In this document: piece by piece, positions 15,717-39,103 of the stretch
Layout: each line of letters begins with the position of its first letter
Position numbering within the stretch: the first letter of the stretch is position 1
Assembly (NCBI RefSeq): GCF_900128975.1
Contig: NZ_FQVC01000016.1
Location: forward strand, 1 to 64,000
Direction: 5' to 3'
Length of the DNA stretch: 64,000 nucleotides
DNA from: Devosia limi DSM 17137
Lineage (GTDB): Bacteria > Pseudomonadota > Alphaproteobacteria > Rhizobiales > Devosiaceae
Made by a program: the position numbers and the translations under genes
Notes under the pieces: model-generated
Databases searched by the model: none
What the model saw: only the letters and a program-made list of their open reading frames with translations
Told to the model about the DNA's origin: nothing

Positions 15717-15803
15717 GCCTTTCTCTAGCCAAGTCCCCTCACGCCCGCTATGACGGCGCGCATGAGGGCGCACGGCGCCCAGGCGCAGGAGCGAGACAAG
15801 CAT

Positions 15804-16613
15804 ATGGTCGTCCAGGCAATTCGGTCCGCTCTGTTCTATATCTTTTTCATCGGACAAACGGTGCTTGTCGCCGTCAGCATCGGCACCATTGCGCTGGTGA
15901 CCGGTGGCCGCACCATTCTCAGCTGGAACATTGCCAAATACTGGTGCCGGTCCAACCTGTCGATGCTGCGCTGGATCGCCGGTGTCCGCACCAAGGTCAC
16001 CGGCACCGAGAACATCCCCGAGGGCGGCTGCATCATTGCCGCCAAGCACCAGAGCGATTGGGATGTCTTCGCCATCTTCCCCCATACCGGCCGTCCTGCC
16101 TATATCGTCAAGAAGGAGCTGATGCGCATCCCCTTCTTCGGCTGGGCCGCCCGCTCGCTCGACTGTATCGAAGTCGACCGCAAGAAGGGCGCCGAGGCCA
16201 TTCCCTCGATGATGCGCCAGGCCCATGCTGCTATCGAACGCGGCTGCCGCATCGTGATTTTCCCCGAAGGCACCCGCAAGGCGCCGCTCGCCCCCGCTGA
16301 ATATCGGCAGGGCATTGGCCGACTCTATGCCGAGCTCAATGTGCCGGTGGTGCCGGTAGCGCTCAATTCGGGTCTGTTCTGGGGCCGCAATAGCCTCGTG
16401 ATCTGGCCGGGCACCGCCGAAGCCAAGTTCTTGGCCCCAATTGAGCCGGGACTGGCGCCAAATGTTTTCCAGGAGCACCTTAAAGCTGCCATCGAAACAG
16501 AATCGGATGAGCTGATCTTTGATGCGATCGATCGCGGCCTGTCCCGCCCCATAGACGATCGTCTGCGTGCCGCTATTGATACCCGCAAGGGATCGCGCTC
16601 CAAGGCCCGCTAA
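15804..16613 (+). CDS. plsC: 1-acyl-sn-glycerol-3-phosphate acyltransferase (PlsC-type)
   Basis: The 269-residue enzyme should acylate lysophosphatidic acid to phosphatidic acid at the inner membrane. The HxxxxD catalytic motif is in AKHQSDWDVF and the FPEGTR motif follows about 80 residues later, both diagnostic for the PlsC superfamily. A hydrophobic N-terminal helix anchors it. I place the start at ATG 15804, with AGGAG at 15787-15791, rather than the upstream ATG at 15750, which adds a charged tail. It lies 87 bases after ftsX in the same direction, a pairing common in Rhizobiales. Confidence 0.88.
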   Translation: MVVQAIRSALFYIFFIGQTVLVAVSIGTIALVTGGRTILSWNIAKYWCRSNLSMLRWIAGVRTKVTGTENIPEGGCIIAAKHQSDWDVFAIFPHTGRPAYIVKKELMRIPFFGWAARSLDCIEVDRKKGAEAIPSMMRQAHAAIERGCRIVIFPEGTRKAPLAPAEYRQGIGRLYAELNVPVVPVALNSGLFWGRNSLVIWPGTAEAKFLAPIEPGLAPNVFQEHLKAAIETESDELIFDAIDRGLSRPIDDRLRAAIDTRKGSRSKAR

Positions 16614-16675
16614 TCACTACATATTGACAACTTTAACGATCCCTGCCTACATGTAGGCGTGCTGCGTGTGGGCGC

Positions 16676-16709
16676 TTGACGTCTATTGCATTTTGTTCTA
16701 TTTTTGTTC
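16676..16709 (+). promoter_or_regulatory. Sigma-70-type promoter overlapped by a LexA (SOS) box
   Basis: A TTGACG element (16676-16681) and a TATTTT element (16699-16704) are separated by exactly 17 bases. Overlapping the -10 is GTTC at 16695-16698 and GTTC at 16706-16709 with seven bases between them: the direct-repeat LexA box GTTC-N7-GTTC of alphaproteobacteria. LexA bound there would cover the -10 region. The gene downstream starts at 16740. Confidence 0.75.
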
Positions 16710-16739
16710 TACTTCTGGCGCAGCAGGGGAACGGCAACA

Positions 16740-17084
16740 ATGGCCTTTCTGAGCGACAATAAGGTAGTGGCACCGGCCTTCATCCGGCCGGTCAGCTGGC
16801 AGGGGCGCTCCGGGCGGTCCTATGGACTGGTGGGCGAAAGTCTCGACCAATTCGCCATGGCCGAACGCGATCTCTACATCATCGCCAAGGGCAGCCATGT
16901 GCTCTGGGTCGGCTCCACCGGCGAATTGGTCGGCGATCCGATGAGCCGCACCCGTTTTCGCCTCGCGCTCGATTGCGCCGATCGCGTGTTCCGCTGCCTC
17001 ACCCCCGGTGCCGATGCCGAACGCATGGCCACCATTTGGGACCTCGAAGGCGCCGAACCCGTTTCCGAAGTCCAGGCCGCCTAA
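16740..17084 (+). CDS. Hypothetical protein, putatively SOS-controlled
   Basis: This 114-residue protein has no signal peptide, no transmembrane helix and no motif that I recognise. It contains an alternating hydrophobic stretch (RDLYIIAKGSHVLWVGSTGE, about residues 41-60) that looks like beta strands, and three cysteines are not obvious. ATG at 16740 has AGGGGA at 16725-16730 nine bases away, and starts about 30 bases after the predicted transcription start. The open frame extends upstream through the promoter and was not used. Its promoter carries a LexA box, so expression after DNA damage is expected. It stands alone: the next gene is convergent. Confidence 0.7.
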   Translation: MAFLSDNKVVAPAFIRPVSWQGRSGRSYGLVGESLDQFAMAERDLYIIAKGSHVLWVGSTGELVGDPMSRTRFRLALDCADRVFRCLTPGADAERMATIWDLEGAEPVSEVQAA

Positions 17085-17114
17085 CGCCCCCACCACTCAG
17101 ACTTTAGCCCACCA

Positions 17115-17183
17115 GGTCATTCCCGCTCAGGCGGGAATCCATTCGTCGCTTTCTTCCGCACGCCACCGCCCCTCGCGAGGGGC
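17115..17183. repeat. REP-like palindrome and a perfect CCCCTCGCGAGGGG palindrome
   Basis: A GTCATTCCCGC...GCGGGAATCCA unit occupies 17115-17143, and a perfect 16-base palindrome GCCCCTCGCGAGGGGC occupies 17168-17183 next to the stop of the second ChaC gene. They sit between convergent genes and may act as a two-way transcript end, without a clear T-tract. Confidence 0.65.
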
Positions 17184-17738
17184 CTAGGCCGTCCCGAGCT
17201 CCCGCGTCAGCATCTCTGCCAGCGCCATCAGCTGCCGATCCCGGATACCCAGTTCGCTCAGGCGCCGCGCCGTGTTCAGCACATAATCGATATTGGGCCC
17301 CGAAACGCCCATTCCCGCCTGCACCATGGCCAGTTGCCGCTCCAGTTCCAGCCGGCCTGCATATTGGAAATGCCGCTCGTCAACGACGAAGGCCAGCGCG
17401 CCGACCATGCGCCCATCGGCCAGCCACACCTTCCGCATCGCCTCGCGATATACCCCGGTCACCTGCTCGCGCTCGCGCAGATAATCATGCACCCCGCGCC
17501 AGTCGCTATCGGCGACCTCGAACACCATGCCGCGGCACGAACCGCCCCGCGTCAGCCCAAACACCAGTCCCGGCTGCGCCTCGGTCCCGCGATGATGGTG
17601 GGAATAAATCGATAGGCTACGATGCGCCCCCCGCAGCAAGCCCTGCTGCGCGGAAACATGCGTGAAACCGGGATTCCAGATCAATGATCCGTAGCCGAAG
17701 ACCCAATGGGTCGCTGATGTGCTTAATGTATCGAGCAT
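17184..17738 (-). CDS. ChaC-like gamma-glutamylcyclotransferase (second paralogue)
   Basis: This 184-residue protein has the ChaC pattern: VFGYGSLIWNPGF at residues 13-25, LRGAHRSLSIYS, and the LREREQVTGVYRE segment with the catalytic glutamate candidate. It should degrade glutathione in the cytoplasm. Unlike the paralogue at 9261 it lacks the N-terminal extension and is close to the length of the minimal family members. It is convergent with the putative SOS gene and divergent from the DUF2125 gene. Why the genome carries two such enzymes within 8 kb is unclear. Confidence 0.88.
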   Translation of the reverse strand: MLDTLSTSATHWVFGYGSLIWNPGFTHVSAQQGLLRGAHRSLSIYSHHHRGTEAQPGLVFGLTRGGSCRGMVFEVADSDWRGVHDYLREREQVTGVYREAMRKVWLADGRMVGALAFVVDERHFQYAGRLELERQLAMVQAGMGVSGPNIDYVLNTARRLSELGIRDRQLMALAEMLTRELGTA

Positions 17739-17915
17739 TGCCTTGACCTGGCTAGAATCCTAGAGAAGCTGTGCCTGTGAGGCAACAGCCTCTTCTGACT
17801 AGCCACCATGCAAGACTGGATCGACCCGGATTTGCCCGCCCGCCCCCGCCATGCGCGGACTTGCCCATCCGGCCGGGCTTTCGCCAACGCGTCGCCAAGG
17901 ATAGAAGTGCCGCCC

Positions 17916-18884
17916 ATGAAGAAAATCATCGCCCTTGGCATCGTCGTTCTTGTCGTCGTCCTGATCTGGACCGGCGGCTGGTTTTTCCTCGCCGGCCAGC
18001 TTCGCCAGCAGATCGAGGCCCAGGCCCTGGCCGATGGCGTCACCACGCCACGCCTCACCTGCGAAGGCCTGGATGTCACCGGCTTCCCGTTCCGCTTCGA
18101 TGCCGATTGCAGCGGGGCCAGGCTGGTGAGCGGCGACATGGTCGCTGACATCGCCGGCATTCGCGCCAGCGTTCTGGTCTATCGCCCCACCCACATCCTG
18201 GCCTCCGCCCTCGGGCCGGTGACCATTTCCGACGCCTTTACCGGCACCAAGAACAGCGTCAGCTGGTCGGGCCTGGAAGCCAGCCTCCGGCTCGACAATT
18301 GGCGGATTGCCCGCCTGTCTGTCTCGGTTCACGACGCCGTCTGGTCCGATACATTGATGGGCGATACGGTGATTGCCCAAAGCCCGCTGGTGGAACTGCA
18401 CCTGCTCGATATACCCGAACAGCATGACGCTACCGCCGGCCTCGCCGCGCTGGCAGGTTATGTGCAGGTCCAGGGCCTGTCCTATCCCGGCATGACCATC
18501 GCCGATGGCAATGCCCAGATCGAGATCGAGCTCCACGCCTTGCCCGACGACATCAGGCGCTTTGGCGATGTCGATCTGCTGCGCAACTGGCAGGCCGCCA
18601 ACGGCCAGCTCAAGCTGGTCTCGCTACGCGCCGACGATGGCGCCGCCAATCTCAATGCCGAGGGCACGATCAGTCTCGACAATCGCGGACGGGTCGAGGG
18701 GCGCATTACCATGACTTCCAATGGCGTCGTGGCGCGGCTGGAACCCGTCCTCCTCGAGCCCTATCGCACCCTGGTCTTTGGCAATCCCGGCGTCGACGGC
18801 AACCATTCCAATACCGTCAATTTCCGCCTGGGTCGCGTGTTCTCCGGCGTCATCCCGATCGGCGCCATTCCGCCGCTGTTCTGA
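17916..18884 (+). CDS. DUF2125 domain-containing protein
   Basis: A 322-residue protein with one N-terminal transmembrane or signal-anchor helix (KKIIALGIVVLVVVLIWTGG, residues 2-21) and a large exported domain rich in beta strands. The CEGLDVTGFPFRFDADC segment at about 49-65 is the characteristic start of DUF2125, which is confined to alphaproteobacteria and has no known function. ATG at 17916 gives a canonical anchor; the 36 codons upstream in the open frame lack any such feature. It is convergent with tyrC, which is a common pairing in Rhizobiales and supports the call. A two-way terminator follows the stop. Confidence 0.85.
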   Translation: MKKIIALGIVVLVVVLIWTGGWFFLAGQLRQQIEAQALADGVTTPRLTCEGLDVTGFPFRFDADCSGARLVSGDMVADIAGIRASVLVYRPTHILASALGPVTISDAFTGTKNSVSWSGLEASLRLDNWRIARLSVSVHDAVWSDTLMGDTVIAQSPLVELHLLDIPEQHDATAGLAALAGYVQVQGLSYPGMTIADGNAQIEIELHALPDDIRRFGDVDLLRNWQAANGQLKLVSLRADDGAANLNAEGTISLDNRGRVEGRITMTSNGVVARLEPVLLEPYRTLVFGNPGVDGNHSNTVNFRLGRVFSGVIPIGAIPPLF

Positions 18885-38077: not shown

Positions 38078-39103
38078 CTAGAGGCTGGCCCGGACCTTGT
38101 CGGCCACTTCAGGCGCAACCCAGCCGGTCCACACGTCTTCCTTGGTCTTGAGGAAGTTCTCTGCGGTCGCGGCGGCATCGGCCTGGTTTTCATCGCCATA
38201 AACCAGCAATTCGCTGATCTCGGCATTGGTCAGGCCGACCTTGGACAGGTAATTGGCGACATTGGGCGCCTCTTCCTGCAGCCAGGCAGCAGCGCCGACG
38301 ATCGCCGGCGAAGACGGATAGGCAGTGATGCCGGCCGGCTCGTCGCAATCGGGATCGGTATTGCAGGCATAGACCTCGGGCTTGGCCTCACCCATGTCGA
38401 GCGCCACCGCATCGAACTTGCCCAGGATCGCCGTCGGACCCCAATAGTAGAACAGGATCGGCTCTTCGCGCGTGAAAGCGCGGGAGATCGAGGCATCGAG
38501 CGCACCGCCAGAACCCGGCGAGAACAGGTTCCACGCGCCGCTCATGTCATAGGCATCGAACAGGGCCGTCGTGGCCAATTCGCAACCCCAGCCCGGCGGG
38601 CACGAATAGATGCGACCCTTGCTGGAATCTTCAGGATCGGGAAACACGCTCGGATTGGCAATCGCCGTTTCGGCGCTGACGATCTCGGGATTGGCTTCCT
38701 GGGTATAGCGCGGGATGAACCAGCCTTCGATGGTGCCGTCGGTAATGGCCTCGCCCAGCTTGACCACCGAACCCTCTTCGAGGGCGCTGTCCCACTGGTC
38801 CTGCACGGTGCTGGTCCACAGTTCTGGCGCAATCGCCGGCGAACCGCGCATCACCATTGAACTGGTCGTCGGAACCGTGTCGCCGGTGACGATGGCCACA
38901 TCGCACCCGAAGCCGGTTTCCAGAATTTTTGCGTGAATATGGGCCAAGGCAGCCGCTGAGGGCCAGGTCATCTCGGCAATGTCGATTGTACGGTCAGTAC
39001 CACAAGCGGTCGCATCCACGTCCTGGGCGACTACGGGCACCGTTGCTGCCGACAATAAGGCAACGGTCATCGCGGCGGCAATGCCACCGGATTTCAATAT
39101 CAT
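38078..39103 (-). CDS. proX: Periplasmic solute-binding protein for osmoprotectant (ProX-like, copy 1)
   Basis: This 341-residue secreted binding protein has a signal peptide (residues 1 to about 27, cut after VVAQ). The mature part carries the aromatic segments expected for betaine binding: PELWTSTVQDQW, GWFIPRY, PPGWGCELA and FYYWGPTA. Tryptophan-rich boxes of this sort form the cage for quaternary ammonium groups in the OpuAC/ProX fold. Paired cysteines may form disulfides. ATG at 39103 has AGGAG seven to ten bases before it; a promoter is visible at 39137-39165. It heads the proX-proW-proV run. The next gene on this strand is a paralogue. Confidence 0.9.
   Translation of the reverse strand: MILKSGGIAAAMTVALLSAATVPVVAQDVDATACGTDRTIDIAEMTWPSAAALAHIHAKILETGFGCDVAIVTGDTVPTTSSMVMRGSPAIAPELWTSTVQDQWDSALEEGSVVKLGEAITDGTIEGWFIPRYTQEANPEIVSAETAIANPSVFPDPEDSSKGRIYSCPPGWGCELATTALFDAYDMSGAWNLFSPGSGGALDASISRAFTREEPILFYYWGPTAILGKFDAVALDMGEAKPEVYACNTDPDCDEPAGITAYPSSPAIVGAAAWLQEEAPNVANYLSKVGLTNAEISELLVYGDENQADAAATAENFLKTKEDVWTGWVAPEVADKVRASL

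Follow-up and report, generated by a model that had tools for sequence, protein, structure and literature searches.

Two questions arise at this locus: whether a small gene whose promoter carries a LexA-like repeat belongs to the SOS response, and what its product would do there. The window, the whole 64,000-nucleotide stretch of DNA analysed, contains the promoter TTGACG-N17-TATTTT, the GTTC-N7-GTTC direct repeat overlapping its -10 element and the 114-residue product behind it, each as an earlier note on this DNA had described.

16676..16681, + strand: -35 hexamer TTGACG (promoter scan; window letters)
16695..16709, + strand: LexA box GTTCTATTTTTGTTC, GTTC-N7-GTTC (pattern search; kept before orthologues)
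16699..16704, + strand: -10 hexamer TATTTT, 17 bases after the -35 hexamer and within the LexA box (promoter scan)
16725..16732, + strand: probable ribosome-binding stretch AGGGGAAC (window letters)
16740..17084, + strand: predicted pseudo-GIY-YIG protein of 114 residues, stop included (translation, model, profile comparison, residue columns)

The ATG at 16740, preceded by a GGGGAA stretch, opens a reading frame that ends with a stop at 17084. A promoter scan of 16560-17300 returned a single site, against 0.2 expected. A second promoter starting from TTGACA at 16624-16629 was considered and is absent from the scan output.

Exact GTTC-N7-GTTC occurs twice in the window, against 1.2 expected, and a count this near to chance makes the box by itself weak evidence. 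The window alone could not reject the alternative that promoter letters happen to spell the repeat and the gene lies outside SOS control; the significance of the box depends on conservation before orthologues and on controls. The second exact copy in the window, GTTCTCGCCGGGTTC, lies at 38511-38525 on the minus strand, and there are no others.

Distribution and gene neighbourhood

Of 136 genomes in the window's family, probably Devosiaceae, 131 encode the protein (118/119 among those of good quality), with one match per genome except in two (G094 and G106), where the match is split in two. Beyond the family, a single-sequence search of 24 genomes matched none (0/24). The window-family profile A2 found matches in 32 of 297 genomes of the order, of which 13 belong to the window's family; among the other matches, at least three proved unrelated on inspection. 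Profile A3 reached 228 of 397 order genomes, 21 from the window's family, a count in which many matches beyond the family have weak E-values and were taken uninspected. Built from other families only, profile A5 recovers the window protein as the sole match in its genome (E 8.4e-7) and has matches in just 7 of the 385 genomes searched in the class beyond the order. Named relatives carrying the gene include Stappia, Pseudovibrio, Prosthecomicrobium, Afifella and Bauldia. A plasmid search with one orthologue as query returned no match.

Three neighbours provide a syntenic frame:

15750..16613, + strand: acyltransferase (PF01553, PlsC-like), upstream neighbour (Pfam; synteny)
17184..17738, - strand: ChaC-like protein (PF04752), downstream convergent neighbour (Pfam; synteny)
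17808..18884, + strand: DUF2125 protein (PF09898), next neighbour (Pfam; synteny)

The gene order of the window, PlsC-like before and ChaC after, is also that of loci in other families. Among 54 such loci, hand-picked from the A3 matches to spread over families, a PlsC-like gene precedes the orthologue in 31 and an opposite-strand ChaC gene follows it in 38; both are present at 24 and neither at 9.

Conservation of the LexA box

The earlier note had proposed looking for GTTC-N7-GTTC upstream of orthologues, and this search found the repeat at 69 of 70 loci of the window's family and at 45 of the 54 loci of other families. The family set combines 30 loci from the initial search, the window's own included, all with the exact box (30/30), and 40 diverse picks from the 131 positive genomes (39/40); the sole locus without it is L034, in genome G125. 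In the other families the box lies at most 350 nt upstream. The genomes of eight of these 54 loci overlap an earlier set of 17 A2 loci (seven with the box), and the other 46, from previously unseen genomes, carry it in 38 cases. A forward box is missing at nine of the 54 (L158, L159, L167, L179, L181-L184 and L133). The named loci carry it in 26 of 28 cases, but at least nine of the 28 share their contigs with members of the set of 54.

Within the 17 other-family A2 loci, a near box was found at seven, plus L091 after position correction; L085, L087, L088, L095, L097 and L099 have none, and L093, L096 and L098 were set aside as unrelated. Five of the six boxless loci lie outside the 54, as does the box-bearing L084. 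No forward box was found at nine class-level A5 loci, two within the order and seven from distant relatives outside it. The reversed repeat, GAAC-N7-GAAC, occurs upstream of L159, L167 and L179 among the 54 and of L217 among these nine, all of which have no forward box.

Spacing and position controls single out the same pattern. Across 48 loci, a spacing of 7 gave 52 matches and spacings of 3-6 and 8-13 gave 3-12; across 30 family loci, the corresponding counts were 31 for spacing 7 and 1-9 for spacings 4-6 and 8-11. Control windows of 380 bases from elsewhere contained the box in 2 of 239 cases.

In all 69 family promoters the distance from the start of TTGAC to the box is 17-20 bases, and in 55 of them it is 19; of 44 other-family promoters, 34 have TTG at -19 or -20. 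Operator and core promoter overlap in the window and in the family promoters, and across the order most of the orthologues examined likewise have the box over the -10 element of a sigma-70-type promoter. In 10 of the 44 other-family promoters the box is followed by TCATG, placing a start codon two bases after it (L142, L144, L148 and L173, for example), which suggests leaderless transcripts.

The genome's own lexA gene is preceded by the box GTTCAGTCTTTGTTC, starting 38 bases before its ATG. The repeat had been called the established alphaproteobacterial LexA site; the motif agrees with this lexA box and with GTTC-N7-GTTC as the LexA motif of Alphaproteobacteria in the accessible sections of PMC7987155. 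Conservation, controls, the lexA box and the published motif together make LexA control of the window gene very likely. A chance overlap, which the window count would have allowed, is rejected by the orthologues, the spacing controls and the 2/239 control windows, and we regard it as very improbable. From these comparisons we judge that the gene truly belongs to the SOS response in much of the order. The suggestion in the earlier note that it is an undescribed SOS gene thus gains support from the conserved box, and induction is predicted.

An NrdR-like palindrome pair upstream

When 69 family promoters are aligned at the LexA box, further conserved blocks stand out at about -80 to -69 and about -50 to -39. 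In the window, these correspond to two palindromes:

16617..16626, + strand: palindrome 1, NrdR-box-like, core CTACATATTG, overlapped by TTGACA at 16624-16629 (conserved block; nrdJ matrix)
16647..16656, + strand: palindrome 2, NrdR-box-like, core CTACATGTAG, 30 bp from palindrome 1 (conserved block; nrdJ matrix)

The palindromes are most commonly 31 bp apart in the window's family and 30 bp apart in the window. They were scored with a matrix built solely from predicted NrdR boxes before nrdJ at nine ribonucleotide reductase (RNR) loci of the family; the boxes were selected through a consensus sequence with a gap of 31 imposed, and three of twelve RNR loci were left out as weak or pairless (L262, L263 and L264). 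With the gap left free, 31 is best or tied-best at eight of the nine loci, and L269 ties 33 and 31 at other sites.

Applied to the promoters of the SOS gene, the matrix gives a mean score of 8.08 at gap 31, compared with 0.45, -3.67, -3.08 and 0.10 at gaps 29, 30, 32 and 33. The match starts at -82 in 42 of 69 promoters. At the strict threshold, 64 of 70 promoters outscore all 470 control windows from elsewhere in the family loci, windows that are probably less AT-rich than the promoters; compared with shuffles, 60 of 69 lie beyond the 95% mark. Because 62/70 and 65/70 promoters also clear a lax threshold at gaps of 28 and 34, respectively, the case is built on the mean score and the strict threshold. 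The window pair scores 13.2 at its gap of 30, and both of its boxes have the conserved C and G nine bases apart.

Published NrdR box pairs have this spacing. Spacers between NrdR boxes are 15-16 bp in three of four bacteria and 25-26 bp in the fourth, and 14-17 bp spacers were bound by all four NrdRs tested (PMC12051234, accessible sections); boxes are placed about three turns apart in the accessible part of PMC9110341. In a Pseudomonas aeruginosa nrdR mutant, the lexA, recA and recN transcripts were changed, an effect that its authors call indirect (PMC4409342, accessible sections). The family pair resembles the NrdR box pairs of RNR promoters in having two palindromes ~31 bp apart and differs from them in that the gene behind it is not an RNR gene and that palindrome 2 lacks the conserved C in most relatives, with A at this position in 44 of 69 promoters.

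NrdR itself is encoded in the genome (TIGR00244, E 1.1e-45), and the pair suggests a second, dNTP-sensing input to the promoter in the window's family; we regard NrdR control there as likely. L034 keeps the pair in the absence of an exact LexA box, and the two controls may therefore be lost separately. These same observations, NrdR-like spacing, a match to the nrdJ matrix, an encoded NrdR and the pair at L034, would also suit a protein that is placed under LexA and NrdR in order to adjust RNR or spare dNTPs during repair. The substituted C of palindrome 2 speaks against such a role, as does the absence of a group trend towards a tandem pair in the 44 other-family promoters. We know of no RNR contact for this protein, and consider this role improbable.

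A probable relationship to the GIY-YIG fold

The product had been described as a protein without known domain. This holds for curated libraries: searches of Pfam, NCBIfam and PADLOC up to E 1 returned nothing for the window protein. Profile and structure comparison, however, points to a degenerate GIY-YIG fold. Across the 61 members from the window's family and 50 from other families, the best Pfam strays have E-values of 0.0024 (61 members) and 0.0016 (50 members) and the best NCBIfam stray 0.0039 (50 members), each from one or two members; PHROGs gave nothing worth naming, with a best stray of E 0.011 (50 members), likewise from one or two members. The Pfam GIY-YIG model PF01541 is unmatched at E up to 1 by any of the 61 and 50 members. 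Searched against the PDB by sequence, the window protein has best rows of E 0.28 or worse and no UvrC up to E 10.

Modelled with AlphaFold (pLDDT 78.6, pTM 0.67), the window protein begins with four strands, which are followed by two helices, one more strand and a final helix. UvrC GIY-YIG domains rank first, weakly, in Foldseek (E 0.37), and a second structural aligner returned five UvrC entries and a plant Grx domain, 2lwf, which we take to be GIY-YIG, with Z of 3.6-4.2 and an unrelated pilin chain (Z 3.7) amid the UvrC rows. A second model, of the orthologue L134 and from other-family sequences only, reached a pLDDT of 85.5 and a pTM of 0.76. Its top eight matches in the second aligner are 2lwf, five UvrC GIY-YIG domains and two R.Eco29kI GIY-YIG chains (Z 3.6-5.9; next 3.4), and Foldseek gave no GIY-YIG chain among the best 50 matches listed. 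Across both models, GIY-YIG chains have structural Z scores of 2.4-5.9, all under 6.

The bridge to GIY-YIG came from class-level profile matches; a PF01541 search of 61 order genomes did not yield it. The A5 matches at class level, with one protein from an onward search, have a W-x-G-x-S-G-x-x-Y-like start followed by recognisable GIY-YIG. Tested against PF01541, four of five bridging proteins score below the cut-off and the fifth has no score, and a Bradyrhizobium relative of one of them is annotated as 'GIY-YIG nuclease family protein'. Aligned with hhalign, A5 matches these five relatives at 99.2% (E 2.9e-19), A2 matches the same five at 94.4% (E 9.4e-8) and A2 matches A5 at 98.2% (E 2.8e-14). 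The comparison of A2 with the five is the fairer test, because some of the five were found via A5. By BLASTP, the Bradyrhizobium protein, WP_231146028.1, is 36% identical over 90 aa to the orthologue L183, a locus without a LexA box.

The link to GIY-YIG is stronger from sequence than from structure. Profiles and models indicate a product related to a small GIY-YIG nuclease family, whose fold it probably keeps. With the W-x-G-x-S-G-x-x-Y family (WP_231146028.1, Bradyrhizobium barranii plasmid pCC829_3), the SOS family shares the start motif and a D-L end motif, and it differs in the replacement of the catalytic Tyr, Arg and Glu. The N-terminal GIY-YIG domain of UvrC (1ycz, 1yd5 and 1yd6) ranks near the top of the structural matches for either model, and it has a DNA-repair context in common with the SOS family; here the Z scores are only 2.8-5.1, and the PDB sequence search missed the domain.

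Replacement of the catalytic residues

A joint alignment shows that the five bridging proteins retain Tyr, Tyr, Arg, Glu and Asn. The 61 members from the window's family keep the first Tyr in 47 cases, have Trp at the YIG Tyr in all 61 and Asp at the Arg column in 57, this column being the least certain of the alignment; no Glu is among the residues listed at the Glu column. With the catalytic Tyr, Arg and Glu replaced, the window-family protein is most likely a pseudonuclease.

The UvrC GIY-YIG domain and Cho, an SOS-induced UvrC relative of Escherichia coli, are active nucleases, and the window protein could likewise cut DNA in the SOS response if its catalytic residues had been relocated, for example to R70 and to D101 or E103. 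In favour of this, R70 and F73 never vary within the window's family and D101-L102-E103 hardly does, while the Glu persists in 8 of the 50 members from other families. Against relocation, the window's family has other residues at all three catalytic positions, and R70 and E103 are not kept in other families, though D101-L102 is. We think an active enzyme improbable.

SulA and SidA are SOS-induced inhibitors that work by protein contact, and, as a second alternative, a small protein behind a LexA box could similarly inhibit division or replication as a checkpoint protein with a recycled fold. Of the family members, 63 of 70 end in Ala-Ala, as do 20 of 51 outside the family; such a C-terminus would suit rapid ClpXP removal and might mark the protein for ClpXP. 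This degron reading is weakened because Ala-Ala also closes 30 of 88 reading frames of the unrelated ChaC neighbour, counted in family and order loci, and no known inhibitor was matched in the libraries searched. A checkpoint role is unlikely in our estimation, if somewhat less so than relocated catalysis. Ala-Ala ends were also counted in two other neighbours, PlsC (1/92) and FtsX (0/26).

A probable LexA-repressed pseudonuclease

The probable explanation of the locus, in our assessment, is a LexA-repressed SOS gene whose product is a GIY-YIG pseudonuclease acting by binding, with what may be a second input, from NrdR, in the window's family. LexA seated on the -10 element would block RNA polymerase; upon damage, RecA-triggered cleavage of LexA would clear the promoter, and the pseudonuclease would then be made in a burst. 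The protein would bind rather than cut, its likeliest target being either a repair protein or DNA with a branched or damaged structure, and would serve as a non-cutting accessory or protective factor in the SOS response. In the window's family, low dATP, relieving NrdR repression, would also feed expression. A fuller version, which we rate as rather less likely than not, is that an SOS gene of much of Hyphomicrobiales encodes a dead GIY-YIG protein and that the promoter of one family integrates signals of DNA damage (LexA) and of the dATP level (NrdR), so that the pseudonuclease would be produced at times of both damage and dNTP demand.

The gene is undescribed in the literature searched, and no gene under direct joint control of LexA and NrdR was found in it. 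The accessible sections of PMC12051234, PMC7987155, PMC6813329, PMC9110341, PMC4409342 and PMC13384398 mention neither the gene nor such direct joint control. Compared with the known alphaproteobacterial LexA regulon, the window gene shares GTTC-N7-GTTC and its position over the -10 element; it differs in that the NrdR-like pair upstream would add an input and in that no such gene is named in the sections surveyed. Within the limits of that literature, this would be a new SOS gene family with a known operator and probably a known fold. Should the explanation hold, the SOS response of Alphaproteobacteria would gain a member of wide conservation, one in which a nuclease fold has been turned to a non-cutting role, and a testable link between SOS and dNTP supply at the level of a promoter would be proposed. 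The sharp operator and the small gene make laboratory testing easy.

Further candidate LexA boxes in the genome

In the same genome, the pattern GTTC-N5-TTGTTC occurs 11 times, against one occurrence of a reversed control pattern. A candidate box, GTTCCCTATTTGTTC, stands behind TTGACT at G000:C6:77337-77351 (locus L101), before a gene of 269 aa that has no Pfam match up to E 0.001 and looks imuA-like. Another, GTTCTTTGTTTGTTC, likewise behind TTGACT, is located at G000:C6:262867-262881 (locus L102) before a GFA-family gene (PF04828), which is a second candidate SOS gene.
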